A stretch of 39,462 nt of DNA from a virus: positions 1-39,462 of IMG/VR virus record IMGVR_UViG_3300031977_001241. One strand, 5' to 3'. Of the stretch, positions 11,893-33,820 are shown in pieces. The notes under the pieces are model-generated. The model was not told where the DNA came from, ran no database searches, and saw nothing but the letters and a program-made list of their open reading frames with translations. Made by a program: the position numbers and the translations under genes. Position 1 is the first letter of the stretch. Each line of letters begins with the position of its first letter.

Positions 11893-11893
11893 T

Positions 11894-12772: not shown

Positions 12773-13443
12773 AAGTTAAAGTTCAGTGCTTTATTTCTGT
12801 GGAATATACTTCCATCTTTTTCGTACATTTGTGCGTTTTCATTTCTTGCGTGCAATTCATCAAAAGGCTGAGGTGTCCAATCATGTTTAGCAATACAGGT
12901 TTGACTAACCACTAATTTGTTAAGTAGCATCAAAACGTGTGTTTGTTCGGTGTCACAATATACAGAAGTATACTCTGGATTATAAATGTATCCAAACTTC
13001 TCATAAAAGTTCCATCCGATGATTGGTAGAGTCATAAGAGCATCATTACGAAGCCCGTCATGATACTTTATACCACCATCATAATTCGGTAGATGCTCTG
13101 CGAAGTCTGACATGATGATGTCATCATAGTTGTCTTGTTGTAGAACCATGTCATCGGATATGAGTAAGATTACGTCAGCCTTCTCTCCCTCAAGATCAGC
13201 GTTACATGCTTCGACCTTAGTTTTAGATTTTCCGTAATGATACACTAGGTCAATACCTTTGTCACGCAACGACTCAAGGTAACTTTTGATCTCATCGTTG
13301 TTCATTGTTTCATCGTCTAGATCCATCGAAATGACAAATCTCACCTCATGTTTACCTGAGGTTCGTGATGTATAATTATCTAAAATGTCCCTGAACTTCT
13401 CTGGTCTGTTGCGAGAAGGGAACTTCACAAGCAATTTTGACAT
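12769..13443 (-). CDS. Glycosyltransferase-like protein, first gene after regA
   Basis: The protein has 224 residues from ATG 13443, which lies 1 nt after the regA stop. The pattern is GT-A-like: LLVKFPSRNRPEKFRDIL, VRFVISMDLDD, then VILLISDDMVLQQDNYDD as the probable DxD-region acidic site. Such proteins occur in marine T4-like phages next to other sugar genes. It opens the island that replaces the gene 43 (DNA polymerase) position of T4. Catalytic function is inferred only. Confidence 0.55.
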   Translation of the reverse strand: MSKLLVKFPSRNRPEKFRDILDNYTSRTSGKHEVRFVISMDLDDETMNNDEIKSYLESLRDKGIDLVYHYGKSKTKVEACNADLEGEKADVILLISDDMVLQQDNYDDIIMSDFAEHLPNYDGGIKYHDGLRNDALMTLPIIGWNFYEKFGYIYNPEYTSVYCDTEQTHVLMLLNKLVVSQTCIAKHDWTPQPFDELHARNENAQMYEKDGSIFHRNKALNFNL

Positions 13444-13444
13444 A

Positions 13445-13852
13445 CTATTTCTTTCTGTTACCAATGTGATACTTTGGTATCAACTCCCAATCATCTTTAT
13501 CCTTAAATGGTAAAATTTTCATTTTACCTAAACTCACTTGTGGTTCTTCTACTTTATCTTCGTCCACAATATCAAGTAGACCCCACTCCTCCAGTAAACA
13601 GGCGATTGTGTTTCTTCGTCCTACATCTGTATTACTTATGTCAGACTCTAATCCATCCATCTCAAAAAGTTCTTTGAAATGCATGATCGCATATCTACCT
13701 TGTTTGTGCAAAATATGACACGATTGATATAAAATGTTTTCTTTTTTTGATGATACGCCGATTCTCGTAAGAGTCTCTTTCACTTTTAAAAAATCATCAT
13801 CTGTTTTAAGACGTATCTCAACACCCAATCCTTTAAATAAATTGTCGCTCAT
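13445..13852 (-). CDS. regA: RegA translational repressor
   Basis: The protein has 135 residues (T4 RegA has 122). It aligns strongly by eye with T4 RegA: FLKVKETLTRIGVSSKKENI, LYQSCHILHKQGRYAIMHFK, ELFEMDG, LEEWGLLDIV and a C-terminal LIPKYHIGN. RegA binds the start regions of phage mRNAs and represses translation of early replication genes, including the clamp and clamp-loader genes and its own. The gene follows gp62 as in T4, with a 39-nt gap holding a -10-like element and an AAGGA ribosome site. It has an extra N-terminal stretch and an acidic insert around residues 97-107. Confidence 0.95.
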   Translation of the reverse strand: MSDNLFKGLGVEIRLKTDDDFLKVKETLTRIGVSSKKENILYQSCHILHKQGRYAIMHFKELFEMDGLESDISNTDVGRRNTIACLLEEWGLLDIVDEDKVEEPQVSLGKMKILPFKDKDDWELIPKYHIGNRKK

Positions 13853-16359: not shown

Positions 16360-17229
16360 TTAAAAATCTCCTATGCTGGACATCAAGTTTTTCAACTTGT
16401 TTTTAATAAAGTAGTCTAGGAGTTTGGAACGATCATTAACAATCATGTCCTTCTCAAACTCCTCTAAAATCAATGATTCATATTCATCTGGAATCTTAGT
16501 CATATCAATCATCGTTTGGTTTCTTTCGAAGTTAACTTTCCACGCATCATTATACGGATCATCGATTACTTCTTCAACTCTTTTTTTGCTACAAGGCTTT
16601 TGTCTTTTACCATCGATCATAAAAGTATCATCATCTGAGAGAACATTTGGAATACCATCTGACGAGTCGCCTTTGATAATGTGTTCCATCAAAAAACGTT
16701 GAGGGTCATCACAAACTAGAAATTGTTTCTTCATCAAACTATACTGTTCGACGTTGTTATATCTTTGGAGTTGTTGGAAGTCTTTATCGTTTGAAACGAT
16801 GAGAATCTTTTCGCTCGTATGATATTTGCGTGATAGGACTGCAATAATATCATCTGCCTCAACTCTATCGACAGAGAGACATTTGTAGGGAAAAGTTTCT
16901 CTAACCTCATTTCGAATGATATTCATGACACCAAAGACATCAGACCAATCGATTGCAGATTTATCTTGATTCTTTTTGCGATTCGCCTTGTAGTATTCAA
17001 AGCAATCTTTTCTCCAGCAGTTTGAGGTATCATCACAAATTACTAGATCACCATAAGTGTCACCAAACTTAGTCTTAACCATGCGGTATGTGTTTAGCAC
17101 AAGGTGACGTATAAAGTTCTCATCAATTTTTTGCTCTTGTTTTGCTACAGAAAAAATGTTTGCGATGAGAACTTGACTATTATCAAGAAGAATAATTTTG
17201 TTGCCTCTTTCAGAAAGTATCACCACCAT
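16360..17229 (-). CDS. rnh: RNase H / 5'-3' flap exonuclease
   Basis: The protein has 289 residues from ATG 17229 (T4 RNase H has 305). It has the FEN-1/5'-nuclease pattern with acidic metal-binding clusters: IILLDNSQVLIA, LVICDDTSNCWRKDCFEYYK, VEADDIIAVLS, ILIVSNDKDFQQL and IKGDSSDGIPNV. The enzyme removes RNA primers and adjacent DNA on the lagging strand. The start aligns with T4 RNase H, and longer in-frame starts would run far into the upstream gene. It overlaps that gene by 20 nt and has no clear ribosome site, so coupled translation is likely. Confidence 0.92.
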   Translation of the reverse strand: MVVILSERGNKIILLDNSQVLIANIFSVAKQEQKIDENFIRHLVLNTYRMVKTKFGDTYGDLVICDDTSNCWRKDCFEYYKANRKKNQDKSAIDWSDVFGVMNIIRNEVRETFPYKCLSVDRVEADDIIAVLSRKYHTSEKILIVSNDKDFQQLQRYNNVEQYSLMKKQFLVCDDPQRFLMEHIIKGDSSDGIPNVLSDDDTFMIDGKRQKPCSKKRVEEVIDDPYNDAWKVNFERNQTMIDMTKIPDEYESLILEEFEKDMIVNDRSKLLDYFIKNKLKNLMSSIGDF

Positions 17230-17734
17230 CGATGGTTTTATTTGGGTTGTCAACAGGTTTCCATTTATTGTTTGGATGAGTAGATTCAGGCACATATCCT
17301 GAAACTCTACCTGTTGCGATGTAACTATTACCCTCATAGTATACCACATCACCAAGTGAATAGATAGTATATTGTCCAGATTCGTCAAACATTTTAAAAT
17401 CTCCAACAACGTTGAAGCGATCTCTGTTATTTACCTCTTGAGTAAATCTTCTTCTGCCTCTTCTATCCCTTCTTAATACTGATCTATTTCTGTATAACGA
17501 AGTTCTATTAGACTGCACTCTCTGTCTCTGATGTAATTGACTCATCAGATTATAAATCTGAATCGCCTCAAATTTATTGAATCCTTCTGGTATGATGTAG
17601 TTTTCAATAAATTGTTTCGCAGTTGCAGAATCTCTAACAGCGCCTACTTGTACCGCAACCATTTTGGAGTAAGCAGACTGCCATCCACCACCACCCCAAG
17701 CGTAAGTTAAAAGTTGTGATATGTCGTAAACCAT
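17210..17734 (-). CDS. Unknown protein with arginine-rich linker and CBM5/12-like C-terminus
   Basis: The protein has 174 residues. The N-terminal 70 or so residues are not recognised (MVYDISQLLTYAWGGGGWQ). Residues of roughly 70-100 are very arginine-rich (NRSVLRRDRRGRRRF). The C-terminal part (YSLGDVVYYEGNSYIATG, then NNKWKPVD) resembles carbohydrate-binding modules of the CBM5/12 type ('GdxVxYxGxxYxA...P....W'). Such modules are common on phage tail proteins. Its place among replication genes argues against a simple virion role. The start is a TAATG junction. Function unknown. Confidence 0.6.
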   Translation of the reverse strand: MVYDISQLLTYAWGGGGWQSAYSKMVAVQVGAVRDSATAKQFIENYIIPEGFNKFEAIQIYNLMSQLHQRQRVQSNRTSLYRNRSVLRRDRRGRRRFTQEVNNRDRFNVVGDFKMFDESGQYTIYSLGDVVYYEGNSYIATGRVSGYVPESTHPNNKWKPVDNPNKTIDGGDTF

Positions 17735-18075
17735 TACTTTTTCTTCTTATCGTTCGTAAGTTTATAAACTCTATAAATCTCATCAATATGTATGTGAGCA
17801 TGATCTCTCATGTGCATACGATCTTCTCTCTCACGGTTAGACATGTACCAAAACTTCTTATCTACAATAAATTCGTCGATAACATCTTTCTTCCAACGTA
17901 GTTGAATTCTAAGATCTGTTCCTTTTAAGAAGGATGACCATTTATCATGATCTCCTGCTGTTTTGTAAACTTTAACAACGAAGTTGGAGTCGAGACTTTC
18001 TAACGACTGTGTTAGATAAGTCTCATATGACTCCGACTTCATATTCTTATACTTAAGCGGTAGTAACTTCGGCAT
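17734..18075 (-). CDS. Conserved-type hypothetical protein
   Basis: The protein has 113 residues if started at ATG 18075, inside the 3' end of glutamine synthetase; ATG 18042 (102 residues) is also possible. An AGAGG lies close before the first start. It is mostly charged with a DEFIVDKKFWYMSNREREDR segment and a lysine run at the C-terminus. There is no signal peptide, membrane segment or recognisable domain. The stop overlaps the next start as TAATG. Tight coupling suggests a real gene; no function is proposed. Confidence 0.65.
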   Translation of the reverse strand: MPKLLPLKYKNMKSESYETYLTQSLESLDSNFVVKVYKTAGDHDKWSSFLKGTDLRIQLRWKKDVIDEFIVDKKFWYMSNREREDRMHMRDHAHIHIDEIYRVYKLTNDKKKK

Positions 18076-19147
18076 TTTCCTCTACCTTAATGGTGTTCAG
18101 AATTGCAGCGTAAGCAAGATATGGGTCCATATTTGCTGCTGGTCTACGATCTTCCAAGTAACCTGCACCGTCATTTTTCACTGTGACGGGTGGAATACGA
18201 ATTGATGCAGACCTATCACTGACTCCATATGAGAAGTCTTCAATGGAAGATGTTTCATGCTTTCCTGTCAATCTACGTTCATTACCCACACCATAATCAC
18301 TGCTTGACATGAGTTCACCATGACCGTCTGCTAATTTTTCGCAGATCGTGTTCATGAGATCCATATCACCAGATCTCATAGAATGTGTTGAAAAGTTAAT
18401 GTGCGCCCCCGATCCGTTCCAATCTCCTTCGACAGGCTTAGGATCATAGTTGATACCGATCCCTCGACTCTCTGCAACACGCTGTAAGATATAACGTGAT
18501 ATCCAAAGACTGTCAGCAGCATCAATCGCATCCATTGGACCTAATTGATATTCCCATTGAGACTTCATTACCTCAGCATTGTTTCCTTCGTAAAAAAGAC
18601 CAATTTGTGAACACGCTTGAGCATGTTGCTCTACCACGAAACGTAATGGAGTTAAGTCACCACCAACACCGCAATAATAATCTCCTTGAGGTGCTGGATA
18701 TTCACCATGCTCACCCCACTCAGCAGGCCAGTTTTCTTTTGGATTCCATAAGACATATTCCTGCTCAACTGAGAAAATTGTCTTATCAGATTCTTTGTTA
18801 TTCGAAAAAGCGTCTCGTAAAATTGCACGATTGTTTGTTGCGTGAGGGTTACCATCCATATCATAAACTTCACACAATACAATGAATGATGGAATGGGTG
18901 ACTGAGGAGGAACGAATGGATTCTTAAAAACCTTCACAGGTTTCAGAGAAAGATCGCTATTTTCAGTCACCGCTTGATTGGTGCTTGATCCATCATAAGA
19001 CCACTCAGGTGCATGTTCAATGATGTTATCGATAGTCGGTGGAATCTGCGGATTTTCTGAGGGAATATTTACGTTCCGAGTTTTGGAGCGAATACCCACT
19101 GGTTCACAACCGTCCAACCAAACATACTCTAATTTTACTTGTCTCAT
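18053..19147 (-). CDS. glnII: Glutamine synthetase type II (eukaryote-type GSII)
   Basis: The protein has 364 residues, the usual GSII length and well short of bacterial GSI (about 470) or GSIII (about 700). All diagnostic blocks are present: EWSYDGSSTNQA (48-59), the metal-binding EQEYVLW (129-135), PAPQGDYYCGVGG (151-163), AEVMKSQWEYQLGP (191-204), GDWNGSGAHINFST (241-254), GNERRLTGKHE (288-298) and GYLEDRRPAANMDPY (329-343). The enzyme makes glutamine from glutamate, ammonia and ATP. The start is ATG 19147 in an ATGA overlap with the methyltransferase, after AGAAAGG. The frame is intact and all visible catalytic residues are kept, so activity is likely. Confidence 0.95.
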   Translation of the reverse strand: MRQVKLEYVWLDGCEPVGIRSKTRNVNIPSENPQIPPTIDNIIEHAPEWSYDGSSTNQAVTENSDLSLKPVKVFKNPFVPPQSPIPSFIVLCEVYDMDGNPHATNNRAILRDAFSNNKESDKTIFSVEQEYVLWNPKENWPAEWGEHGEYPAPQGDYYCGVGGDLTPLRFVVEQHAQACSQIGLFYEGNNAEVMKSQWEYQLGPMDAIDAADSLWISRYILQRVAESRGIGINYDPKPVEGDWNGSGAHINFSTHSMRSGDMDLMNTICEKLADGHGELMSSSDYGVGNERRLTGKHETSSIEDFSYGVSDRSASIRIPPVTVKNDGAGYLEDRRPAANMDPYLAYAAILNTIKVEENAEVTTA

Positions 19148-20730
19148 AAACAACCTTTCTTAAAAACGAGAACTGGTTCATATTTTACATACGTTCCATT
19201 TATTTTGCAATAGTTTTTACACTTAGGTTTTCCATTTTCGTCCAACCTATTTTGACCAGGCATTCCTTCGAGTGCCATCTTCAAAGTATATTTATACTCG
19301 ACACCCATAGATTCAAGTATATCAATACTATCTTTTTCTAAAGGCAGATATTTTTCTCCAACCTTAACATCAGCGATGTTCCACAATAAGTAACGGTTAG
19401 GCTTTAACCAAGTCACCGCTGTTTCTAAGGTCGGACGAAGAAAACCATCTCTCCACGATTCATATGATGAACCAAACTTTTTGTAACTTTGGTTTTCGTT
19501 TTCGCTGTATGCTTCACGATTAAAGTAGGGTGGGGATGTAAAAATAAGATCTATATCACCTTTATGTTTCTGAAACCCCAAATCGTGTTGGATTACCTCT
19601 GACCCCAAACAATAGATTTCATAAGTGTTAACAGGTCCGCAAAAAAATGTGTTTCCTCTATTGGTTTTGGTGTTGTAGAACTCAGCGATATCGGAGTATC
19701 TGTTGGTGCTGTCTGGAGAAAAGTTATCAACGTTAGGGTCAGTGCCGATGTAATGAATACTTCTGTCATCACGAACGGACATCGCTCCAAGAATCCTACC
19801 TCCCCAACCAGCGGACGGGTCATAAATTTTAATAACGTCCTGATCTTTGATATCATCTGTAAACCTTTCATATAGATACTTCGCTGTCATGGGTGGGAAG
19901 TTAACTGCTGGTTGAATATAACCAATACGAAACGCTGCAAATCCTTTTGGAAACACTCTGTTTCCCTCTTTGTATATGCGAACGTTATACACCTTATCAT
20001 CAGGCATATTATCTATATCAAATGTAGAGTAATGACGATACTCTAATCTTCCATTTCTTTGTAATTCTAAAACTTGATCTTTCGTTAAAGAAAGTGTGTT
20101 TGACTGGTCTACTTGATTATACCCAGTATTCATCCCTTCTTTGATTGCAACCTGTTCTAGAAAAAAGTTGTAACCATTGAAGATGATGCTCTGGTTATCG
20201 TAGAAAGTATTGACGAATGTGATACCGTCATCAACTGAGACTAACGCTGGTTTCACATTATTTTTGAAACAGGTGAGAGCGTGTAGATACATGGAGTCTC
20301 TGCGAAAGTGTCTCATGCATCCCTTAAACATTTTCTCCTCAAATCTATCCAACGCAAAAAGATCATAGATTGAATAACCATTATCTCTTTCTGTGTAATT
20401 GATTCTAGTTTTATACATGTTCGCAAACCACTGATCTGCCTCTGCACCTAATCTACTTTTATTGACAATGACATCATCAGGGATGTCAGACAATTCGTCA
20501 GAGTGTGTGAACTCGTGTATGGGATATGAGATCATTTTATTAAACTGATCTATGATTTCATCTTCAGTTTTTCCTTGTCTCGGTGGGACGTTTTGCTCAT
20601 CCCAAATATCAATCACAAGTTTTCTCATCTTTGAAACCCAAGATCGAAACTCATCTGGAGTCATGCACAGTAAGTCCTCGAACTTACAGTTAATATCAGA
20701 GTCTATGAGACTAGTGTTTTTCTCATACAT
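19144..20730 (-). CDS. DNA methyltransferase (TSPPY type, N4-C or N6-A)
   Basis: The protein has 528 residues. The SAM-binding motif DPSAGWGGR is at residues 304-312 and the catalytic TSPPYF at 398-403, followed by YRYLLWNIADVKVG-like strands. This is the order and sequence of amino-methyltransferases acting on exocyclic N4 of cytosine or N6 of adenine. The N-terminal 280 residues are not recognised and are larger than in simple phage orphan enzymes, so they may hold target recognition or another function. It starts with TAATG at the gp46 stop and ends with ATGA into GSII. No restriction enzyme is adjacent, so protection of phage DNA is the likeliest role. Confidence 0.8.
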   Translation of the reverse strand: MYEKNTSLIDSDINCKFEDLLCMTPDEFRSWVSKMRKLVIDIWDEQNVPPRQGKTEDEIIDQFNKMISYPIHEFTHSDELSDIPDDVIVNKSRLGAEADQWFANMYKTRINYTERDNGYSIYDLFALDRFEEKMFKGCMRHFRRDSMYLHALTCFKNNVKPALVSVDDGITFVNTFYDNQSIIFNGYNFFLEQVAIKEGMNTGYNQVDQSNTLSLTKDQVLELQRNGRLEYRHYSTFDIDNMPDDKVYNVRIYKEGNRVFPKGFAAFRIGYIQPAVNFPPMTAKYLYERFTDDIKDQDVIKIYDPSAGWGGRILGAMSVRDDRSIHYIGTDPNVDNFSPDSTNRYSDIAEFYNTKTNRGNTFFCGPVNTYEIYCLGSEVIQHDLGFQKHKGDIDLIFTSPPYFNREAYSENENQSYKKFGSSYESWRDGFLRPTLETAVTWLKPNRYLLWNIADVKVGEKYLPLEKDSIDILESMGVEYKYTLKMALEGMPGQNRLDENGKPKCKNYCKINGTYVKYEPVLVFKKGCL

Positions 20731-22445
20731 TACTTGATCCTACTAAAGTTGTTCTTTTTCATAAACACAAAGTGGTTGTGGAACTTATCAGCAAGATGAT
20801 CCGTCTTGTGACTAATCACAAAGATATTTGAATTACCGCTAGTGAATGTCTTAAGTAGTTTCATAAACTCTTCGGTTCCCGCTGCATCGAGACTTGAATC
20901 AAAAACCTCATCGAGAATCAACAAGTTACAACTTACGCTGTTTTTCAGTTTAGCAACTTCTCTCCATGCAAACAGAAGAGCAAGATCAATACGAAGTCTT
21001 TCACCCTCACTTAGATTGTAGTATGAGAAGTCATCACGGTATCTGCTTTTGATTTCTTCATTAAAGTTTTCATCGAGTGTAAACTTGCAAAAGAAGTCCA
21101 TCGCCTTCAAATACTTATTGATTAAATTATTCATGACAGGGAGATACTGTTTAATAATTCTTGCTTTGATGCCTGTATCTTTTAGCAGACTTTGAATAAT
21201 CTCAAGATGATTTTCATCAACAATAAATCTTTCTTTTTCTTTTGTTTGTTCCATGCCCTCATGAATCAACTTCTTCATTTCTACAATATCATCATCAAGT
21301 GTGTTCTCTTGACTCTGGTTTTGCTGTTTTCTCTTGAGCATCCCATCGATGTATGTTTGACAAGAATCTATCTTCGCCTGTTCGTATTGTTTCTCACCCA
21401 AGATTTGATTGATCGTTTGTTGTATTTCATCCTGATCATCTAGCCTCTTTTTTGTTTCGTCCATCTTCACTATCAACTTTTGTAGATTGTCTTCGTGTTC
21501 AGACTGTTTTGTTTTTTGGTTTGTAACAATCTGACACTTATGATCAACGCCTATATCTTGTCGGCACACTGGACATTGATCGTTCTGTGAAAAGAAGTCC
21601 ATATCCTTTTTGATATCGGAGAGTTTAGAGTTTATCTCTCGTCTTTCGAGTGACAGGTCGGACAAACTATTTTTATTTACGTCATGATCAACCAACTCAC
21701 CAATCAGATCTAGGTGCTTGTCCTCTAGATCTTTTATCCTATTTTTTGCGTCCTCTATTTCTTGTTTCTTTTGATCAATCTCGTCATCGATACTATCGAG
21801 ATTACTTTTTGCTTGGTCTTTGATCTTATCAATATATTCTTTTTTAGTTTCGATCTTTGTCTTTAGCATATCGATACTATTTTCTTTGTCCTTAATAATC
21901 TCACGAACAGCAGAAACCTTACCCTTCACCATGATGTTCATGATGGTAAATATATTAATATCCAACAAGTTTTCAACGATGTCTCTTCTATCTGTCGCAG
22001 ACAACTGCATGAAGGGAACATAGTTTGATGATCCCAAAACAACAATCTGACAGAAGGACTTGTAAGACATTTTAAGAATCTGTTCCTCTAGGATTCTCTG
22101 ATAGTCTTTTGCTTTAGCCTCTTGTGGTAGCAACTCTCCGTCAACATAGATGTCGAACACTTTTGGTTTCTGTCCTCGACGAACAAGATATGACTTAGGA
22201 CCAATAGAAAATTCTATCTCAACCACAGAGTCCTTTTCATTAATACTATTCACAAGTGTAGAAACGGTGATACCACGAAATGATTTACCAAACAAAGAGT
22301 ATGTCAATGCATCCAGAATCGTAGACTTACCAGCACCGTTCTCTCCCGTTATAAGGGTAAGACCGTGACGACACAAATCAACTTCTGTGAATGCATTTCC
22401 CGTTGAAAGAAAGTTCTTCCATCGAATCTTTGTAAATTTAATCAT
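20730..22445 (-). CDS. gp46: Recombination endonuclease subunit gp46 (Rad50/SbcC-like)
   Basis: The protein has 571 residues (T4 gp46 has 560). It shows Walker A GENGAGKST (34-42), a long coiled coil broken by the zinc-hook CPVC at 291-294, the ABC signature LSEGERLRIDLALLF, Walker B LLILDEVFDSSLD and the H-loop VISHK. With gp47 it resects DNA ends for recombination-dependent replication. The ATG overlaps the preceding stop as ATGA. Confidence 0.96.
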   Translation of the reverse strand: MIKFTKIRWKNFLSTGNAFTEVDLCRHGLTLITGENGAGKSTILDALTYSLFGKSFRGITVSTLVNSINEKDSVVEIEFSIGPKSYLVRRGQKPKVFDIYVDGELLPQEAKAKDYQRILEEQILKMSYKSFCQIVVLGSSNYVPFMQLSATDRRDIVENLLDINIFTIMNIMVKGKVSAVREIIKDKENSIDMLKTKIETKKEYIDKIKDQAKSNLDSIDDEIDQKKQEIEDAKNRIKDLEDKHLDLIGELVDHDVNKNSLSDLSLERREINSKLSDIKKDMDFFSQNDQCPVCRQDIGVDHKCQIVTNQKTKQSEHEDNLQKLIVKMDETKKRLDDQDEIQQTINQILGEKQYEQAKIDSCQTYIDGMLKRKQQNQSQENTLDDDIVEMKKLIHEGMEQTKEKERFIVDENHLEIIQSLLKDTGIKARIIKQYLPVMNNLINKYLKAMDFFCKFTLDENFNEEIKSRYRDDFSYYNLSEGERLRIDLALLFAWREVAKLKNSVSCNLLILDEVFDSSLDAAGTEEFMKLLKTFTSGNSNIFVISHKTDHLADKFHNHFVFMKKNNFSRIK

Positions 22446-22999
22446 ACTGTAACGCTAACTCCGTTCCACCAATGTGGAGTGGTTGTTTTCCATTTTGCAA
22501 AATACGCTTTCTCTCCATGATAATAATTACGATACGCTTGAACCGCATCACCCACAACCTTATATTGTTCAGGCATCGCTTGAGCAAACTCTGTCTGATG
22601 AATAGACAAAAGGTTATCGGGGTATGTATCAAGGAAGTACCGACACATAGATTCGCATGAATGTTTTTTCTCATAGCGTGTTGTGTATTCTTCGGTCAAC
22701 GCAACAGCGTGTCTCGCTAACCATCGGTAGTTTTCTTTTGATTGCATAATCCACTGTGTGCAGGGATGACCAACAAACGATGCTTTCCACAGTAGACCTT
22801 CTCTTGGTTCTTCTAGTCTCCATCGTTTTATACGACGAGGTTTTGCACCCTTCGACAAGTCTGTATATTCCTGCCCATCAAGAACACGATGTGCAGATGA
22901 CAACATCTGACATGACTCCACAATCATCTTAACGACATGCTTATCACATGAGTATTCCGCAGCCTTGATTGGATCATTATCTAAAACAAAAATGTTCAC
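22442..22999 (-). CDS. Conserved phage protein of the 'MNIFVLDxDP' family
   Basis: The protein has 185 residues and starts at GTG 22999 in a GTGA junction with gp47. Marine phages often carry this family; its marks here are NIFVLDNDPIKAAEYSCDKH, VVKMIVESCQML, GHPCTQWIMQSKENYRWL and a C-terminal YFAKWKTTTPHWW. It is sometimes annotated as a pyrimidine-dimer glycosylase, but I see no likeness to T4 DenV and do not assign that activity. Conserved His/Cys/Asp residues near the start suggest an enzyme. It lies between gp47 and gp46, so a DNA-related role is possible. Confidence 0.75.
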   Translation of the reverse strand: MNIFVLDNDPIKAAEYSCDKHVVKMIVESCQMLSSAHRVLDGQEYTDLSKGAKPRRIKRWRLEEPREGLLWKASFVGHPCTQWIMQSKENYRWLARHAVALTEEYTTRYEKKHSCESMCRYFLDTYPDNLLSIHQTEFAQAMPEQYKVVGDAVQAYRNYYHGEKAYFAKWKTTTPHWWNGVSVTV

Positions 23000-24027
23000 A
23001 GTGTTAAACTCTCCATATACAAATCACGAATCATTTTCTTGATTTTCTCTTTGTCGCCTTCGCACTTGAGAGAATCAACTTCATCTTGAATTAGTGTCAG
23101 TGTATCTTTTTTCATATCGATGTCAACCTTTTCTTGTTCAAGATCCTCTTCTTCGACAATCGTAAGGTTTGCGACTTGGGCGGTATACAGCCCTTCTAAG
23201 AACTTATCAAACTTAACTGGATCTTTCTTGCTCGATACAAATACCTTAACATATCGGTTTTCGTAACTAGAATAGAAAGACTCGCTGTAGGCTTTATCGT
23301 CCTCATACTTTAGTTTATGAAACATTCGACTTGGATTTTCGATGTATTCAAGTTCTCTTGTTTCTGTGTCTAGAACGTGAAAGCCTTTTGGTTCACCGTG
23401 ATCCGAGAATGTTATCTCGTAGTGAGTTCCAAGATAGTGTATATTGTCTCGACTTTGTTTACAGTGAAAGTGACCACTCAACACTTTCTCAAAACGCTTG
23501 AATAGTTGTGGGGACATTCCGCCTCTATGCTTTACGCCTCTTAAAACCTCATATCCGTCCAACTCCAAATGACCAACTAGTATCGGAGCATCCACTGTTT
23601 TGATGTAGTCTGTAAACTCCTCTGCGTTTTCTTTATTTACCCACGGTAACATGGCGATTCGTAACCCGTCAAACTCCAGTGTTTTAGGCTTCTCGTATAT
23701 GTTAAAGTCCTCGTAGAATAACTCACGCATCGAATTGATTCGGTTTGTATTTCTATAATACACATCATGATTACCTAAGATACAATGCAAATCAATGTTG
23801 CGATTTTTTAGAGGCTTTATAAAATGTTCTCGGACATGATTAAGAACGTTGAAGTTTACAAACTTTCGACGATCCATAAGATCACCAGCATGAAGAACTG
23901 TGGTGATGTTGTTCGCATCTAAGTAAGGGAAAAATGTATCGTTGAAAAACTCAGTAAAATAGTCAAGGAATAACTGAGAGTCTCCTCTCGCTCCCCAATG
24001 CGTGTCACTCAGTAGTGCTATTTTCAT
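22996..24027 (-). CDS. gp47: Recombination endonuclease subunit gp47 (Mre11/SbcD-like)
   Basis: The protein has 343 residues (T4 gp47 has 339). The calcineurin-like phosphoesterase motifs are complete: LLSDTHWGARGD (DxH), LHAGDLMDRRK (GDxxD), LGNHDVYY (GNHD), VGHLELDG and SGHFHCKQ (GHxH). It is the nuclease partner of gp46. It overlaps gp55 by 23 nt. The C-terminal 60 residues are acidic and helical and probably bind the gp46 coiled-coil base. Confidence 0.96.
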   Translation of the reverse strand: MKIALLSDTHWGARGDSQLFLDYFTEFFNDTFFPYLDANNITTVLHAGDLMDRRKFVNFNVLNHVREHFIKPLKNRNIDLHCILGNHDVYYRNTNRINSMRELFYEDFNIYEKPKTLEFDGLRIAMLPWVNKENAEEFTDYIKTVDAPILVGHLELDGYEVLRGVKHRGGMSPQLFKRFEKVLSGHFHCKQSRDNIHYLGTHYEITFSDHGEPKGFHVLDTETRELEYIENPSRMFHKLKYEDDKAYSESFYSSYENRYVKVFVSSKKDPVKFDKFLEGLYTAQVANLTIVEEEDLEQEKVDIDMKKDTLTLIQDEVDSLKCEGDKEKIKKMIRDLYMESLTL

Positions 24028-24535
24028 CTGCGTCCTTTTTCTTCTTTTTCTTCTTAGGTGTAAATCGTTCTATGTCAGAATCGGTTAGATTAAAATGCTG
24101 TTCAAGGCTTTTATCTTCAAAGTAATTTTCGGAATAATACTTTCGTAAAGATCCCTCTGAGTCTTCCATCTGAATTGTTTTAAACTTGATATAGTTTTGT
24201 TTCTTTTCTCTTTCGATTCTTCTCAGAAAAGCATAATACACAATCTGAGTAAAATATGAAAATGGATTTTTAGATTTTTCAGGGTTGAAGTTATGAGCGT
24301 ACATCAGACAGTTTTCAATACCATCGCCGATCATCTCATCCTTAAATGGATAGTTCATGAAGTTTGGTTTGTATGACAAGTGTTCCGCAATATCCAAAAA
24401 ACATTTACCAATATACTCAGTCACTGGTGGTCTTGGTTCCCCCATAGACTCTGCTTCTGTAATGTTGTCTTTCCACTCACACATCGCTTTGAAAAACTCT
24501 TTGTTATCGATGTATTGATTTTTTTTGCTGCTCAT
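24005..24535 (-). CDS. gp55: Late-transcription sigma factor gp55
   Basis: The protein has 176 residues (T4 gp55 has 185). It resembles a minimal sigma70 region 2: MIGDGIENCLMYAHNFNPEK and NPFSYFTQIVYYAFLRRIER are the conserved core-binding and promoter-melting helices. It directs host RNA polymerase to TATAAATA late promoters, several of which are visible before the capsid and tail genes here. A good ribosome site (AAGGA) precedes the ATG, and a sigma70-like promoter lies upstream, fitting early expression. The C-terminus has a run of seven lysines. Confidence 0.93.
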   Translation of the reverse strand: MSSKKNQYIDNKEFFKAMCEWKDNITEAESMGEPRPPVTEYIGKCFLDIAEHLSYKPNFMNYPFKDEMIGDGIENCLMYAHNFNPEKSKNPFSYFTQIVYYAFLRRIEREKKQNYIKFKTIQMEDSEGSLRKYYSENYFEDKSLEQHFNLTDSDIERFTPKKKKKKKDADENSTTE

Positions 24536-24557
24536 ATTTTTTTGTCCTTTTTATTCT

Positions 24558-24567
24558 TGACATGTCA
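24558..24567. repeat. Perfect 10-bp palindrome TGACATGTCA near the gp55 start site
   Basis: TGACATGTCA reads the same on both strands and lies just downstream of the -10 of the gp55 promoter. The wider arms CTTGACA (24556-24562) and TGTCAAG (24593-24599) form an inverted repeat enclosing the -10. This could be an operator or an RNA hairpin. Confidence 0.45.
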
Positions 24568-24570
24568 CAC

Positions 24571-24598
24571 ATCATATCACTAGACTTAATCTTGTCAA
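24571..24598 (-). promoter_or_regulatory. Sigma70-like promoter of gp55
   Basis: On the minus strand a consensus TTGACA (24598-24593), a 16-nt spacer and TATGAT (24576-24571) lie about 36 nt before the gp55 ATG. This is the best host-type promoter in the window and suggests early gp55 expression. Confidence 0.7.
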
Positions 24599-24616
24599 GG
24601 GGAAAGGGGGGTACAA

Positions 24617-25336
24617 TTAATCATCTTGTTCTTCTGAATCTTCTGAGTCTAATAAATCATTAGGATTCCAAGAGTAGTCGGTCCACTGAGTTCCAAAATC
24701 TTCACGATCAGTTTCGTTACTTGTATCTTTATCTGTGAACGTTCTCATACCAATGTCGTCATCATCGATCAAGTCCATGATATCGTCTGGATCTAAAAAG
24801 CCTTCTTCAATAAATTTTTTAATGATACTTGGTGGGAAGATCATGTTCATGACTACAAATTCTTTTTCTTTGTCTTTTTCTTTATTAGGCATACCAGAGA
24901 TTTGGTCTATGTTATCCATGTTGTCTTCAGAGAAGTCATCATCAAATTTTTCTCTCATCGACTGTAACATTTGCTGAATCTTTTGCTCTAAAGCCGCTTG
25001 TGCTTCATCCTCGGTCATATTATCAATTGCATCGTGTTGCATCTGAATCTTATCGTCTCTTTCCTTAGAGTCCTCATACAACCGAACCACATCATAGTCT
25101 GGTGACAAAAAACTAACAATAAAGTCTTTTGGGATTACGGTTTTAATTTGACTACTATGACGTAACCAATCCTTTAACACTGTGACCTCTTTTTTACGAC
25201 CAATAGGATCATGCACCATCATGTTTTGAAATTCATAGGGTCTTTCAACCGTAATGCTGTCTCTTTTCTGAGCAACAATCTTAGTTACGATTTCCTCTCC
25301 ACTTTTTAATTTTAACAGTCGGTAGTCTGAGTTCAT
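24617..25336 (-). CDS. Sm-like-fold phage protein with long acidic C-terminus
   Basis: The protein has 239 residues. The first 75 or so (YRLLKLKSGEEIVTKIVAQK, then ITVERPYEFQ) resemble an Sm/LSm-like small beta-barrel, as annotated for a protein at this position in marine T4-like phages. The rest is highly acidic (for example DPDDIMDLIDDDDIG and the end DSEDSEEQDD) and probably disordered. It follows uvsW with an ATGA overlap. An RNA- or protein-binding role has been suggested for the fold; nothing in the sequence proves it. Confidence 0.6.
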   Translation of the reverse strand: MNSDYRLLKLKSGEEIVTKIVAQKRDSITVERPYEFQNMMVHDPIGRKKEVTVLKDWLRHSSQIKTVIPKDFIVSFLSPDYDVVRLYEDSKERDDKIQMQHDAIDNMTEDEAQAALEQKIQQMLQSMREKFDDDFSEDNMDNIDQISGMPNKEKDKEKEFVVMNMIFPPSIIKKFIEEGFLDPDDIMDLIDDDDIGMRTFTDKDTSNETDREDFGTQWTDYSWNPNDLLDSEDSEEQDD

Positions 25337-26829
25337 GTGTTACCTTCCAAGTTCAGATTCTTATGTGTAAAATCAAACTTCTCTTTACTATATATCTTCA
25401 CTCTGTCCTGCATGTGACGATAGGTGTGGTTGACATACTTGAGATGTCTCAAATCATCGCTTATGTCAAACAGTTTTACTCTATCTTTCACATCAGACTT
25501 TCTTAGTCCTCTACCAATAGACTGCAATACACGAATAACGGATCTTGATGGTGAGGCGAAAATGATATTGTTTATATTCTTGATGTTAATACCTGTGGAG
25601 CAGGTTCCGTAGGATGCAATAAGTATCGAATCACGATCAACCGTGTCCACGAGTTTTCGAATATCTTCTCTCTGTGATACATCGGTCCCACCATGAATGA
25701 AGTGAATATCTTTATCGGGACAGTTGTTTTGAATCATTTCGTGAAGAGGGACACCGTGTTCTTTTACATAATTAAAAAGAAGCAAGGTGTTTCCCTTTAG
25801 TTTGCAGGACAAGTCAGTGATAAACTTATTTCTCGCCTCATTGTTGATGATCCACTTGATTTCATCAATATACTTTGCTCTTTTAGTTTCTTTCGTTGAC
25901 TCTTTACTATATCCCAAAACTAGGCAATCAATCTTTAGTCTAGACAATAAGTCTTTGTCCATGAGTTTTTTCGTGGTGGTAACATTCTTAACCAATCCAA
26001 ACAATCCCTCGATTACGAGTTTGTGAGTTTGTGATCCATCGAGTGTTCCCGTGGTTCCGATTCTATGATCACAATTTTTTAGTTTGGTCATGATACCTGT
26101 GAGTGATTTTGCCTTAAATAAGTGACACTCATCACCGAACACACAGTGAAAGTCCTTAAAATATTTTTCGTGTTCTCGATGAATACTCTGCCATGTGGAT
26201 ATTACAATCTTCTTATCTGTTGTTTTTTCTTGACCCGACATAATGTAGTGACAATTATCATCTACTGACCAATCACAGTTTTCAGCATAGTCTCGAAAGT
26301 CACTCATCATTTGAGAAACTAGTGAGGTAGTCGGAACGATAATTAGTATCTTTTTATCAGGCGGTAGACGATCAAGATAGTATCGCAACAAAGTGTAAAT
26401 GATCAAAGACTTACCTGACCCCGTAGGAGAGACGAGAAGGGTTCTCTGCTGCTCTAGAGCGTGCTTAATTGCAGAAATCTGATGTTCGTATGGATCGAAC
26501 GGAAGTTTTAGGTGTTCACGCATATACTTGAGCAAACTGTCATCAGATATAGTATGAGAAACGATCTCTAAGTTATTTTTGAGAGTATAGTTTCTCTCGT
26601 TTGCAAAATCAGCAAGATAATCAATTAACCCCCTATAGAAAGTTTGAGTGTGCATGTTGTATAATCTTATCTGACCGTCCCATACTTTATTCTTATAGGC
26701 GGGAGTGTATTGGTAGTTAGGAACTTTAAACGTAAAAAAGTCTGAGAGTTCTTTTGCAACAGATCTCTCACAGTCAACTTTTACATACACACTGTCGTAT
26801 GGTTTGATTGTAATAAGATTAGTTTCCAT
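25333..26829 (-). CDS. uvsW: UvsW RNA-DNA helicase/ATPase
   Basis: The protein has 498 residues (T4 UvsW has 503). It is an SF2 helicase with Walker A SPTGSGKS (134-141), a DExH box VFGDECHLFKA, motif III IGTTGTLDG, and motif VI QSIGRGLRKS. UvsW unwinds R-loops and branched recombination intermediates and shifts T4 from origin-driven to recombination-driven replication. It overlaps uvsY by 11 nt, the same uvsY-uvsW pairing as in T4. Confidence 0.95.
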   Translation of the reverse strand: METNLITIKPYDSVYVKVDCERSVAKELSDFFTFKVPNYQYTPAYKNKVWDGQIRLYNMHTQTFYRGLIDYLADFANERNYTLKNNLEIVSHTISDDSLLKYMREHLKLPFDPYEHQISAIKHALEQQRTLLVSPTGSGKSLIIYTLLRYYLDRLPPDKKILIIVPTTSLVSQMMSDFRDYAENCDWSVDDNCHYIMSGQEKTTDKKIVISTWQSIHREHEKYFKDFHCVFGDECHLFKAKSLTGIMTKLKNCDHRIGTTGTLDGSQTHKLVIEGLFGLVKNVTTTKKLMDKDLLSRLKIDCLVLGYSKESTKETKRAKYIDEIKWIINNEARNKFITDLSCKLKGNTLLLFNYVKEHGVPLHEMIQNNCPDKDIHFIHGGTDVSQREDIRKLVDTVDRDSILIASYGTCSTGINIKNINNIIFASPSRSVIRVLQSIGRGLRKSDVKDRVKLFDISDDLRHLKYVNHTYRHMQDRVKIYSKEKFDFTHKNLNLEGNT

Positions 26830-27253
26830 TCGTAAATTTTATCCAATCAATTGCAGATCGAATATACCACTGTCTATCAGACATTGTTTTTACGACAGAC
26901 TTTAGATATTCCACCTTTTCTTTTTGATACTCAACCTTATTTGTTAACTTAACAATCTCGTCATCTGACTCCAAAAACTTTTCTAAATCCTGTTTGAGTA
27001 TGTTCAAAGCAAAAGGTTCAAGATCTCTTTCCTCTAACTCTTCGTGACTCATCTTTCCTGTATAGTAAAGCCATTTTATCTTTCGGAGTATTCGTAACTC
27101 ACTTTCAGCCTTTGTAAGAATCAACTTCTCATCTAACAGAAAGTTTAAATACTTGTTATGAAGTTGTGGTGTTTTTAAAGCCTCAACATCTAATTCAGTT
27201 TTGTCAATTTCTAAGTCTTGCTGAACCATAGACTTCAACTCATCCAATAACAT
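26819..27253 (-). CDS. uvsY: UvsY recombination mediator
   Basis: The protein has 144 residues (T4 UvsY has 137). It is all-helical and highly charged, with the UvsY layout: an N-terminal MLLDELKSMVQQDLEIDKTE, a central ELRILRKIKWLYYTGKM matching the conserved 'kLdYYsGk' region, and a C-terminal SDRQWYIRSAIDWIKF. It loads UvsX recombinase on gp32-coated single strands. It is followed by uvsW and preceded by a sigma70-like promoter with AAAAGGAG as ribosome site. Confidence 0.88.
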   Translation of the reverse strand: MLLDELKSMVQQDLEIDKTELDVEALKTPQLHNKYLNFLLDEKLILTKAESELRILRKIKWLYYTGKMSHEELEERDLEPFALNILKQDLEKFLESDDEIVKLTNKVEYQKEKVEYLKSVVKTMSDRQWYIRSAIDWIKFTNGN

Positions 27254-27271
27254 ATAAACTCCTTTTGGTAG

Positions 27272-27299
27272 AGTTTACCCCATAACACCTTATTGTCAA
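27272..27299 (-). promoter_or_regulatory. Sigma70-like promoter of uvsY-uvsW
   Basis: TTGACA (27299-27294), a 16-nt spacer and TAAACT (27277-27272) lie about 20 nt before the uvsY ATG. The -35 is consensus; the -10 matches four of six positions. Confidence 0.5.
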
Positions 27300-27301
27300 G
27301 G

Positions 27302-27847
27302 TTATATCGGTTTTATCTCGTACGTCACAAACTTAAAAGATGCGTCTACAATGATAGGCTCTGTCTCACCAGTAGTGGAATCAAAATCTACGGACCCCAA
27401 TGACTCAGGTATTAACTCCTTGAATCTAATTGACCTTACGGGTCGATAGGCACTATTTACAATGATCAACTCAGCATCTGTGGTAAATCTTTCTCTACCC
27501 TCAAACTCTGTGGTGTCTTCTAGATTTGCACAACTTCTTAACCAATCATGAAGTTCAAGATAGTTATCCATATTTTCATCCACCAAAAAACTTATATTCA
27601 AATCACCAAAATTATATTTATCACCAGCCTTAAACGATCTAGCACCAAATCTAGTTGGTTGTTCAATCGCATTTAAGGAGAAGTCTGGTATATTCACACG
27701 CTGACAGAACCAAACCATATTCGGAGATTTATCCATGATAAATCTAAACGAGGTGTTCATTAGATAATTATTAGTCTTTGGTTGTCTCGTGCCTAAAGAT
27801 TGGTAATAATCTGGTATCGGTATTTGATTCTCAGCAGTGTATCCCAT
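27302..27847 (-). CDS. T4-like tail structural protein in the gp3 position
   Basis: The protein has 181 residues. It has a tail-tube-like pattern: SFRFIMDKSPNMVWFCQRVN, then IPDFSLNAIEQPTR, then NFGDLNISFLVDENMDNYLE, and a final ASFKFVTYEI strand. This family, related to gp19/gp54-like tube proteins, is common in marine T4-like phages. Its place between gp23 and uvsY is where T4-like phages usually have gp3, the tail completion protein, but I cannot show homology to gp3. The start is 3 nt after the PEP-CTERM gene stop and has no clear ribosome site. Confidence 0.65.
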   Translation of the reverse strand: MGYTAENQIPIPDYYQSLGTRQPKTNNYLMNTSFRFIMDKSPNMVWFCQRVNIPDFSLNAIEQPTRFGARSFKAGDKYNFGDLNISFLVDENMDNYLELHDWLRSCANLEDTTEFEGRERFTTDAELIIVNSAYRPVRSIRFKELIPESLGSVDFDSTTGETEPIIVDASFKFVTYEIKPI

Positions 27848-27850
27848 ACA

Positions 27851-28483
27851 TTATGTATATCGTTTTCTACCACGACCGATTAAAGACACACCTAACATCG
27901 TCAAGACGCTAGGCGCAGGAATAACCGTAAACTCTGGTACGACTGTAAAGAATATACCCGCATCACTTTCACCTTGAATTATGCCAGGACTTTCGATCCA
28001 AGAATCTGCGTAAGCGATCACAAACATCGTCGCAAATTCCCCAGGCTTTAAGCCTGAGGATTCCTCGTTTCCCTCAGTCCCCCAGTCCCAGTTATAGAGT
28101 CCTGTCTCATATGCAAAATTAACGTAGTCTGGATCGTTATAAAATTCATCAAATTGTTCTTCGAGTGGAGATGTTAGATAGCCTGGAATCGATAAAATCG
28201 AAAGTTCATCTGACTTTACACCAGTAAAAACATCAAAGTCTTCAATAGATGATTGTGACTCAGGACTGTTATGTAATGTGTAAGTGATAAGAATAGCGTT
28301 ATCAGGAACACCGACAAAATCTTGCTGATCATCCTCTGTGTATACAGCGGTTTCTACATATGCATTCCAACGTTCCCCGTAAACATCAGACTGAAAGTAT
28401 AGTTCTGGTTCACCGACGCCTGGTCCAGCAAGGTCAGCCATCGCAGATGTAGTTATAGCAAGTGCAAGTGTTCGTTTAAACAT
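27851..28483 (-). CDS. Secreted protein with PEP-CTERM-like sorting signal
   Basis: The protein has 210 residues. The N-terminus MFKRTLALAITTSAMA is a signal-peptide-like stretch. The last 24 residues (187-210) form a PEP-CTERM-like tail: a proline motif VIPAPS, a hydrophobic segment VLTMLGVSLIG, and a basic end RGRKR. In bacteria, exosortase cuts such tails to sort proteins to the surface or matrix. The IPAP variant is frequent in Planctomycetes. The middle is acidic and beta-rich with no named domain. A CATAAATA late-promoter-like site precedes it. A virion role or a remnant of host DNA are the alternatives. Confidence 0.75.
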   Translation of the reverse strand: MFKRTLALAITTSAMADLAGPGVGEPELYFQSDVYGERWNAYVETAVYTEDDQQDFVGVPDNAILITYTLHNSPESQSSIEDFDVFTGVKSDELSILSIPGYLTSPLEEQFDEFYNDPDYVNFAYETGLYNWDWGTEGNEESSGLKPGEFATMFVIAYADSWIESPGIIQGESDAGIFFTVVPEFTVIPAPSVLTMLGVSLIGRGRKRYT

Positions 28484-28512
28484 AATATTCCCCCAAGTAT
28501 TTAATTACTCAC

Positions 28513-28520
28513 TATTTATG
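28513..28520 (-). promoter_or_regulatory. Late-promoter-like CATAAATA upstream of the PEP-CTERM gene
   Basis: CATAAATA differs from TATAAATA at the first base and ends 30 nt before the ATG, just after the stop of the preceding gene. It suggests late transcription by gp55-programmed polymerase. Confidence 0.45.
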
Positions 28521-28523
28521 ATT

Positions 28524-29576
28524 TTAGCAATCTCCCCACTCCGCGAGGACTTTCAGGATTGCGTTAAATCCATTGTTAGTTTGCGGGTGGTACTTATATG
28601 CAGCAACGTCTCCAAGCACTTGTAACAAATCTTGGAAACCAACCAGACCATCTTCATTTAAATCAGAAGGGCAAGAGTTGTCGGGGTAGTAATTAACACT
28701 ATAAGGTGATGGATCACATGGATGATCGTTACCGCAAGCAAACCGTACCACACCACCAGAGGAAAAATAGTCTGGACCTGTAAACCGAGCGATGTGAAAT
28801 GAACCAGGCCACTTCTCACTTTCCCAGTCAACATCAGCGTTCCACTTGATTAGATCACCGTAGTCATTCTGTGATGGGGAAGAGCAACACACTTGAGATG
28901 GAATCTGACCTACAGGGAAAGGCTCCCAGAACTTCAACACGGGGGAATCCATCAGATCCTTGTGTTGTTGCTGTACCTGTGGGTACTTGTATTGTTGTGA
29001 GTTACCGTACTTCTTACCGAGCGGACCATGCAGAATCCAAGAGTCACACCATGCGTACTCAAGATCAACTAGATCAGCCGTCCGAGGACAGCATCCCTGC
29101 GGACCCGAAAACTCCCAGTTGATTGGAGTGAACTTCGCACCGAGATACATCCATCGCTGGTAGGGGTTAGATTGAATGCAGTCCCAGTAAGCGCCAGGGC
29201 TTGGACACTCAATCCCAGTATCTATAGTCCAGTAGTCAATACACTCTTGACAATTATCTAACCAAGGATAAAGATGATCGGGTCTGCGATTCTTGAACAT
29301 ATCACCTTCAATCGCCCAACCAAAGGAACGAGAAGGCGATTCATTTCCACGGGTGCAACCGATCATGTAGGGACGACGAGGATCACCATTTGGGTAAGAA
29401 AACTCTGGATCAAAACCAGTTTGAATATAAACATCGAACGTTCGACCGAATGGAGTAAGTCTACCAAGATCGTCGATCCACATCGCAACAGCATTAGGAT
29501 CGGATGGTGGACCAGACTCACTGGCAAAACTAAAAGAAGAAAGTGTGCAAACAACAAGTGTTAAAAAATGTCTCAT
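28524..29576 (-). CDS. Secreted cysteine-rich protein with dockerin/EF-hand-like C-terminus
   Basis: The protein has 350 residues. MRHFLTLVVCTLSSFSFA is a clear signal peptide with a likely cut after SFA. The mature part has 14 cysteines, including two CC pairs, which fits disulfides outside the cytoplasm, and is rich in Trp, Tyr and Pro. The tail (302-350) has the dockerin-like calcium loop DLNEDGLVGFQD, then LLQVLGDV, and a second helix ending in AILKVLAEWGDC; this 'CPxDLNxDGxV...DLLxVLxxWG' ending is common in Phycisphaerae-type Planctomycetes. The central domain is not recognised. A good AGGAGG ribosome site precedes the ATG. Confidence 0.78.
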   Translation of the reverse strand: MRHFLTLVVCTLSSFSFASESGPPSDPNAVAMWIDDLGRLTPFGRTFDVYIQTGFDPEFSYPNGDPRRPYMIGCTRGNESPSRSFGWAIEGDMFKNRRPDHLYPWLDNCQECIDYWTIDTGIECPSPGAYWDCIQSNPYQRWMYLGAKFTPINWEFSGPQGCCPRTADLVDLEYAWCDSWILHGPLGKKYGNSQQYKYPQVQQQHKDLMDSPVLKFWEPFPVGQIPSQVCCSSPSQNDYGDLIKWNADVDWESEKWPGSFHIARFTGPDYFSSGGVVRFACGNDHPCDPSPYSVNYYPDNSCPSDLNEDGLVGFQDLLQVLGDVAAYKYHPQTNNGFNAILKVLAEWGDC

Positions 29577-29596
29577 AATATAGACCTCCTGTTTAC

Positions 29597-29604
29597 TATG
29601 TATA
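29597..29604 (-). promoter_or_regulatory. Late-promoter-like TATACATA upstream of the dockerin-tail gene
   Basis: TATACATA differs from TATAAATA by one base and lies about 21 nt before the ATG, directly after the gp23 terminator. Transcription restarting here would make sense, but the match is imperfect. Confidence 0.4.
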
Positions 29605-29606: not shown

Positions 29607-29634
29607 AAAAGAGGGGGGTCAAAGACCCCCCTCT
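29607..29634 (-). terminator. Intrinsic terminator after gp23
   Basis: A perfect 10-bp GC-rich stem (GAGGGGGGTC / GACCCCCCTC, 11 bp with the outer A-T pair) with a 3-nt loop is followed on the minus strand by TTTT. It lies 27 nt past the gp23 stop and should end the late structural transcript. Confidence 0.9.
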
Positions 29635-29660
29635 CTTACTTCACTCGGAGTTTTTATCTA

Positions 29661-31088
29661 TTAGGTTCCAGAGTTACCGTGAAGGTTAAGAACTCTAAAG
29701 ATACGATAGTATTGGTTAGCACGGATGGTGAGTGTTTCACCGTCAGGCGTACCGTTCGCAGCACCAGTCGTCGTCACGAATGGGTTAGAAACCAGACCGT
29801 AACGAGTCTTGAATCCGATCTTGGGCTGGAAGGTGTTCTCACCGACTGCACGAACCATTTGCAACGGAACGTATGGGCAGTAGAACAATCCAGCATCATA
29901 CGGGTTCGTACCCTTATAACCGACACAGACGTAGTTAGTTGGTCTGTTGTTGGTAAAGGAAGTTGATGCTTCGGTAGCGAATGGGTCAATGTAGACTCTA
30001 AACTTACCGTTAAGAACACCTGCGAATGTGTTACCTGTATCGTCGATGTTCAGGTTAACATTCAGTGCAGGAGAGATGTTGAGGTATCCACCCATAGCAA
30101 GAGCAGATGCGGTATCAGCATCACAGATGATGACGTTACCTTTTCCTCTACGAGTTTGCTTGGCGATAACGTTTGCTTCGCGTTCGATTTGGAACATGAG
30201 TCCTCTCCAACGCTCTGCTGACCAACGACCGTCAGAGTCGGAGTCGAGGTCGTACATACCACCTTGACCAGTGCCAGGGTGACCAATCACAGGTGTAGCA
30301 CCAGTGTTGGCGTATGTCAGATCTTTTTGCTGGGCACCGAGTTTCGCAACACCGTAGATGGTGCGAATGATCTCGCGGTTGATTTCAGCAAGGATTTCCG
30401 TGCTGAGAATGTTAGCGAGTTCGGTTTCAGCGTCAAGACCGTGAACAGCACGCAAGTCTTGGGCGAGTTCGGTTGTGTATTCCGCTTTCAGGGCGCGAGT
30501 CTTCGCTGTGACAGAAGTTCGCTCGATGCTGAATGCCATCGAATTGAAAGCACTGTTTTCACCGAGTGCTTCAGCAGAGTCTCTGCTCATAGGACGACCG
30601 ATTGAGACATCACCTGCGGTAACACCTAATAATGGGTCGAAGTTAGCAGCAGCAGTAGCACCACCAGTACCACCGAAGTTACCTGCTTCTGCGAAGAGGG
30701 CTTCGTTGTTTCTGTCAGCACCGCTGAATTGAGACTTAAGTGCGAAGATAAGACCTGTTGGGGCGCTCATAGGCTGAACACCACAGACATCATATGCCAT
30801 CAGGTTAGGCATCGCACGACGAACGAGAGAGATCAGAATAGGATCATAACCACCGAGTGGTCTTTGTGACCCGTCTACACCTGCAAGACCACCAGAACCA
30901 GCATGGTTCAGTGAGTTAGGCGCTTCGTTCAGCGATTGCTCTCTAAGTGCTGATTCTTGATTCTCAAGAAGAGCAGCGGTAACTTTTCTTCTATAACCAT
31001 CTTCGATTTCAGGCATCGCTTGATGATCAAGAACTGGCGACCACTTCTCAGTAAGTTGGTCATAAGGTGTAACTCCGTTAAAATCCAT
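29661..31088 (-). CDS. gp23: Major capsid protein gp23
   Basis: The protein has 475 residues (T4 gp23 has 521). Marks of the family are the N-terminal propeptide region (ending near SLNEAPNSLNHAGS), PILISLVRRAMPNLMAYDVC, GVQPMSAPTGLIFALKSQ, the substrate-like AMAFSIE segment, and a C-terminal PLQMVRAVGENTFQPKIGFK. It builds the hexamers of the head; gp21 removes the N-terminal propeptide. The ribosome site AAAGGAGAT is strong, and a terminator follows. Confidence 0.97.
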   Translation of the reverse strand: MDFNGVTPYDQLTEKWSPVLDHQAMPEIEDGYRRKVTAALLENQESALREQSLNEAPNSLNHAGSGGLAGVDGSQRPLGGYDPILISLVRRAMPNLMAYDVCGVQPMSAPTGLIFALKSQFSGADRNNEALFAEAGNFGGTGGATAAANFDPLLGVTAGDVSIGRPMSRDSAEALGENSAFNSMAFSIERTSVTAKTRALKAEYTTELAQDLRAVHGLDAETELANILSTEILAEINREIIRTIYGVAKLGAQQKDLTYANTGATPVIGHPGTGQGGMYDLDSDSDGRWSAERWRGLMFQIEREANVIAKQTRRGKGNVIICDADTASALAMGGYLNISPALNVNLNIDDTGNTFAGVLNGKFRVYIDPFATEASTSFTNNRPTNYVCVGYKGTNPYDAGLFYCPYVPLQMVRAVGENTFQPKIGFKTRYGLVSNPFVTTTGAANGTPDGETLTIRANQYYRIFRVLNLHGNSGT

Positions 31089-33640: not shown

Positions 33641-33820
33641 TTATTCTTCTTCGGTTTCTTGCTCTTGTTCGTTTTGTAAAATGTTTGATGTGATATCAAC
33701 GTGTCTTTGTGCTAGTTTATCAGCGATACGATCATTGACTTCTGTTTCAAAAGCCTGTTTAAACTCATCCTCATTACCAATTAAACTATACTGCAACATG
33801 TTACGAATATTATCGTTCAT
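33641..33820 (-). CDS. gp67: Prohead core protein gp67-like
   Basis: The protein has 59 residues from ATG 33820, chosen because GAGGAGGA lies upstream; an in-frame start 13 codons earlier would read through the gp20 3' end and the ribosome site. It begins MNDNIRNMLQYSLIGNEDEF, then EVNDRIADKLAQRHVDI and an all-acidic tail (QEQETEEE). Small size, acidic tail and its place between portal and protease match T4 gp67 (80 residues), a core component cleaved by gp21. It overlaps gp20 by 11 nt. Confidence 0.8.
   Translation of the reverse strand: MNDNIRNMLQYSLIGNEDEFKQAFETEVNDRIADKLAQRHVDITSNILQNEQEQETEEE

Follow-up and report, generated by a model that had tools for sequence, protein, structure and literature searches.

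A protein with a dockerin-like tail, common to unrelated phages, suggests a probable planctomycete host for a T4-like phage

The DNA analysed here (the window, 39,462 bases of an IMG/VR virus record) is a fragment of a T4-like phage, with nearly all coding on the minus strand. On balance, we favour the view that it belongs to a guild of phages that are unrelated to each other, infect planctomycetes (most likely of the class Phycisphaerae) and share the gene of a protein, DOC. In our best reading, DOC would be a surface protein that is made late and exported, and that has been exchanged between unrelated phages with Phycisphaerae-like planctomycetes as hosts; its function is inferred. The host is proposed by association, i.e., from the sharing of DOC between unrelated phages and from syntenic relatives of another DOC-carrying type.

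The initial annotation had called the phage T4-like, and both family models and gene order confirmed it. The window encodes gp17, gp18, gp19, gp20, gp21, gp22, gp23, a tail protein at the position of gp3, uvsY, uvsW, gp47 and gp46, identified with models and by their order in HTVC008M and S-SSM7 (Table 1). It thus has the gp17-gp23 structural block as well as 46/47/uvsW in T4 order. Its gp23 is at best 55-57% identical to that of any isolate (pelagiphage HTVC008M, methylophage Melnitz, cyanophages); the isolates nearest to it, at this low identity, are marine. Kyanoviridae and related marine T4-like phages (HTVC008M, S-SSM7, P-SSM2) have the same core order and gp23 at 54-57% identity, but the window has an insert of two genes, encoding DOC and a second protein (PEP), between gp23 and gp3. 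At this place HTVC008M encodes an unrelated protein of 85 aa and S-SSM7 an unrelated one of 323 aa, and T4-like contigs whose gp23 identity is at most 81% have neither DOC nor PEP there. Beyond the left end of the window, the relative G010 (L261-L262) carries further sugar genes that read as a putative NeuB-like synthase, a cytidylyltransferase and a UDP-GlcNAc 2-epimerase. In a near-identical phage, the neck genes are preceded upstream by genes of Cys-rich proteins with GACC repeats; since another contig (L115) has this motif as well, it is not specific to the clade.

Table 1. Positions of the features discussed in the text (in the window unless a contig is named).
Feature	Position	Strand	Remarks
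Glycosyltransferase-, sugar- and methyltransferase-like gene block	2..13464	-	Read from ORFs; same order in relative G010
Type II glutamine synthetase (GSII)	18053..19153	-	NF041605 E 1.6e-104; PDB GSII E 3e-89; NGSGAH and ERRLTGKHET motifs intact
gp3-position tail completion / tail-tube-like protein	27302..27847	-	phrog_45 E 7.6e-31; gene order as in HTVC008M and S-SSM7
PEP, 210 aa	27851..28483	-	Signal peptide-like N-terminus, beta-sandwich body, PEP-CTERM-like tail VIPAPSVLTMLGVSLIGRGRKRYT
Late-promoter-like CATAAATA	28513..28520	-	37 nt upstream of PEP
DOC, 350 aa	28524..29576	-	Hydrophobic signal peptide-like N-terminus, predicted Ig-like body, 13 conserved Cys, one-loop dockerin-like tail ending WGDC
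Terminator-like hairpin between gp23 and DOC	29607..29637	-	-25.1 kcal/mol, z -5
gp23 major capsid protein	29661..31088	-	PF07068 E 5.5e-128
gp20 portal	33810..35357	-	phrog_213 E 2.5e-202
gp19 tail tube	35373..35897	-	phrog_45 E 2.7e-39
gp18 tail sheath	35937..37934	-	Between gp17 and gp19, as in HTVC008M and S-SSM7
gp17 terminase large subunit	38004..39461	-	phrog_2 E 2.7e-59; 5' end open
NWxxNYLDxPS...CPFA protein	G002 48378-48899; G004 18036-18611; G005 23682-24320; G007 42315-42851		170-210 aa
Tandem DOC paralogs	L082 4899-5984 and 5966-6994; L061 5664-6773 and 6766-7602		26-38% identical to DOC of the window
GACC-repeat proteins	L260 2182-10676		Near-identical phage
TerL in a class genome, 54% identical to those of Terminase_3-type phages	L222 / G294:C1:1835987-1837258		7.2-Mb genome

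We found at least 83 relatives of DOC in IMG/VR viral contigs. Long contigs whose DOC is 77-87% identical to that of the window have no other gene of note in common with it. The terminases on DOC contigs fall into four types (T4-like, T7-like, Terminase_3-type and a novel fourth type), with at most 23% identity or no similarity between types; DOC of these types is 77-86% identical. DOC adjoins structural or packaging genes in the window, as it does in those long contigs that were read. In other T4-like lineages the cassette of DOC (with its paralog) and PEP is placed differently, upstream of gp25 or next to an Hsp20-like gene, and DOC by itself lies between gp3 and uvsY. Phage types were labelled coarsely, by the protein clusters that contigs share; along the DOC tree these labels change 28 times, against a mean of 40 for shuffled labels and a possible minimum of 7. 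Hence, both inheritance within types and exchange between types occur. Since DOC is found, at about 80% identity, in several unrelated kinds of phages, some with relatives in planctomycete genomes, these phages probably have planctomycete hosts in common. Unrelated DOC-carrying phages also have in common a second protein, with the motif NWxxNYLDxPS...CPFA, that matched only phrog_28122 (unknown function). One of these phages (G007) has DOC split over both contig ends, so that its genome, of about 44 kb, is probably complete and circular.

The initial annotation had regarded the tails of both inserted proteins as typical of planctomycetes. Both proteins do have such tails, dockerin-like in DOC and PEP-CTERM-like in PEP, but a specificity of both for planctomycetes was not confirmed, since PEP-CTERM is also found in Cyanobacteria, Verrucomicrobia and Proteobacteria (PMC1569441) and is not diagnostic of the host alone. 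The tail of DOC has a single Ca-loop (DLNEDGxVGFxD) and a WG-x-C end in nearly all full-length relatives, with a few end variants, and fits the pattern of the GC-type dockerins (Ca-loop DxNxDGxVxxxD plus C-terminal W-G-x-C). It lacks the second of the two Ca-binding half-repeats as such: this half retains the helix and the WGxC, without the DxNxDG loop. The GC-type dockerin model (NF041540) did not match DOC of the window, and its best score, for the tail of a DOC paralog, was E 0.032 and 14.6 bits for a cut-off of 29 bits. Proteins anchored by this domain resemble DOC in being of an exported type with a C-terminal CPxDLNxDGxVGFxDLLxVL...WGxC, and are encoded many times over in genomes from the class to which a Phycisphaeraceae metagenome-assembled genome (MAG), discussed below, belongs. 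DOC differs from them by its sub-threshold score, the lost second Ca-loop, an insert between the half-repeats, and a phage-borne body that was not seen in cells.

Thirteen Cys are conserved in DOC, of which ten are invariant (66 of 66 sequences). The tail is slightly more conserved than the body, and the N-terminus is variable. Purifying selection is strong (dN/dS of 0.05-0.09 where dS could be measured; dS is otherwise high or saturated). The structural model, of moderate quality (pLDDT 74), predicts an Ig-like beta-sandwich; fold searches with it in PDB and BFVD gave nothing at E ≤ 0.001, the best Z being 4.9, for generic Ig-like or adhesin folds. Two contigs encode tandem DOC paralogs that bear this tail or a similar one.

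All 16 aligned relatives of PEP retain a tail built like PEP-CTERM ([VI]P-x-P, hydrophobic stretch, basic end); a signal peptide was judged by eye. The isolated tail of PEP matched PF07589 with E 0.016 and 15.7 bits, and relatives reached E 0.002 and 18.6 bits at best, all below the cut-off of 20.7 bits. PEP resembles PEP-CTERM sorting proteins (PF07589, TIGR02595) in its signal-like N-terminus, its beta-sandwich body (Ig-like in a model of pLDDT 68, also moderate, without clear known relative) and its tail, but has P-A-P instead of P-E-P, scores under the cut-off, and is encoded by a phage beside capsid genes. The idea that PEP might partner DOC as a cohesin was not supported, as cohesins appeared only among generic beta-sandwich fold matches. 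Because their tails score below curated cut-offs, neither DOC nor PEP is filed as a family member. Both tails are nevertheless real and, judged by their architecture, would act like sorting tails. Together with the signal-like N-termini and the 13 conserved Cys, these host-style tails imply export.

The place of the two genes after gp23 and the late-promoter-like motif before PEP suggest late expression. The motif TATAAATA is also found upstream of gp18, gp19 and gp22, and ATAAATA occurs nine times on the minus strand and never on the plus strand. DOC itself has no T4 late motif within 90 nt, and the terminator-like hairpin stands between it and gp23. We propose that DOC would be made late, exported through the host Sec machinery, folded with disulfides, and held outside the infected cell by its host-style dockerin-like tail, while PEP of the T4-like lineages would be anchored through its PEP-CTERM. 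DOC might then coat or mask the cell surface, such that further phages, including the cell's own progeny, would not adsorb (superinfection exclusion). Such masking would be a service usable by any phage of the same host. We regard it as the most likely role, in preference to adhesion and to effects on the matrix.

Adhesion is a possible, if doubtful, alternative. DOC would here be carried by the virion, with its Ig-like body or its dockerin-like tail binding the planctomycete surface or matrix, and serve as one adaptor for phages with different tails. Its location among structural genes, the predicted Ig-like fold, the tail being among the most conserved parts, and its presence in phages of different build all agree with this. 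The signal-like N-terminus and the 13 conserved Cys, on the other hand, favour export over assembly into virions in the cytoplasm.

The host was sought in cellular genomes. A profile of the DOC alignment was run against 84,980 species genomes, at limited sensitivity because the search relied on only two short patterns, and gave one confirmed locus, in the Phycisphaeraceae MAG and over the tail. Within the class of this MAG, 41 of 150 genomes encode the dockerin_GC family, frequently with tens of copies each; a sample across the phylum had it in 6 of 99 genomes, of which four belonged to the class sample as well. PEP-CTERM was present in 99 of 101 class genomes. The terminase of the G005-type DOC-carrying phages was at most 24% identical to any of the matches listed among 50,697 phage records, and 29-48% identical to seven genomes of the class. 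Class genomes encode relatives of the G005 type as syntenic TerL-portal-capsid blocks (27-46% identity): of six contigs read, five have portal or capsid genes after TerL in the same order, and two contigs have a matching serine recombinase. One contig, cut at the TerL end, runs on into chromosomal genes (sodium:solute symporter, MoxR, DUF58, BatA, ABC transporter), which is consistent with an integrated prophage. The block is rare in the phylum-wide sample (two partial matches, 32-35%). The G005-type relatives in planctomycete genomes had no DOC in the stretches read.

A TerL in a 7.2-Mb class genome is 54% identical to those of Terminase_3-type DOC-carrying phages, and was set aside for lack of synteny beyond TerL. 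The type II glutamine synthetase of the window has the GlnII fold and intact active-site motifs, with 349.7 bits for NF041605, below the equivalog cut-off of 500 bits. This enzyme, for which the initial annotation had proposed a gene tree, was uninformative on the host, because identities are alike for class genomes (44-48%) and for the nearest phage copies, which are from uncultured huge phages (44-45%). Missing cyanophage genes had also been taken as a clue; psbA is indeed absent from the window (the Synechococcus elongatus positive control was detected), but the absence does not inform on the host, since these are 39 kb of a genome with relatives of 140-250 kb.

It is unlikely that the host comes from a different Gram-negative phylum whose proteins bear both kinds of tails (dockerin-like and PEP-CTERM), e.g., Verrucomicrobiota or Bacteroidota. 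The occurrence of PEP-CTERM in several phyla (PMC1569441) and the sub-threshold dockerin tail would allow it, as would the fact that the search for G005-type blocks spanned planctomycete genomes only (the class and the phylum-wide sample). Yet, the scan across all species genomes confirmed only the Phycisphaeraceae MAG, and the syntenic blocks are in its class and rare across the phylum. The proposal of a T4-like phage of a planctomycete is therefore favoured by DOC in unrelated phage types, by the G005-type synteny and by the sole confirmed profile match, whereas the arguments from PEP-CTERM and from missing cyanophage genes were weak. Among the comparisons made, which covered part of the refuting evidence named in the initial annotation, nothing tied the phage to another phylum.

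The sharing of one gene has a parallel in psbA and other host-linked genes, which are common to unrelated cyanophages. Like these, DOC is kept by differently built phages, probably of the same hosts; unlike them, it is not metabolic and is without cellular homologue in the genomes searched. The parallel, along with the planctomycete-style sorting tails, could speak for an auxiliary role, in which DOC would modify the surface of the host or its biofilm matrix to the benefit of growth or of attachment to particles, and not in order to exclude phages. We think this quite unlikely, as the body of DOC was found in none of 397 class genomes (a search that had no positive control), in contrast to typical auxiliary genes of host origin; DOC is thus not an obvious host copy. 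Assembly chimerism, which might have placed one gene abundant in the data into many contigs, is scarcely credible and in practice refuted by the high divergence of synonymous sites; the consistent context of DOC within each phage type over many contigs and a GC content that tracks the contig also speak against it.

Few phages of planctomycetes are known, and we found no T4-like one in the literature searched. Phage-ZRK32 of Poriferisphaera heterotrophicis infects a marine planctomycete (eLife 2024, PMC10945688), as the phage of the window might. It differs in being chronic and of 21.9 kb, and the consulted portion of that report describes neither a T4-like phage nor DOC. More broadly, a single exported protein anchored by a host tail may have become a widespread late gene of unrelated phages (T4-like, T7-like and others) on one planctomycete group, i.e., a host-specific public-good gene using the host's own surface-sorting code, a proposition that could equally turn out right or wrong. 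If the favoured reading is true, DOC would be a marker by which existing metagenomes could be searched for planctomycete phages of numerous unrelated types, and phages would borrow the surface-sorting tails of their hosts. It would also raise the question of whether one exported phage protein can shield an infected cell from many unrelated phages.
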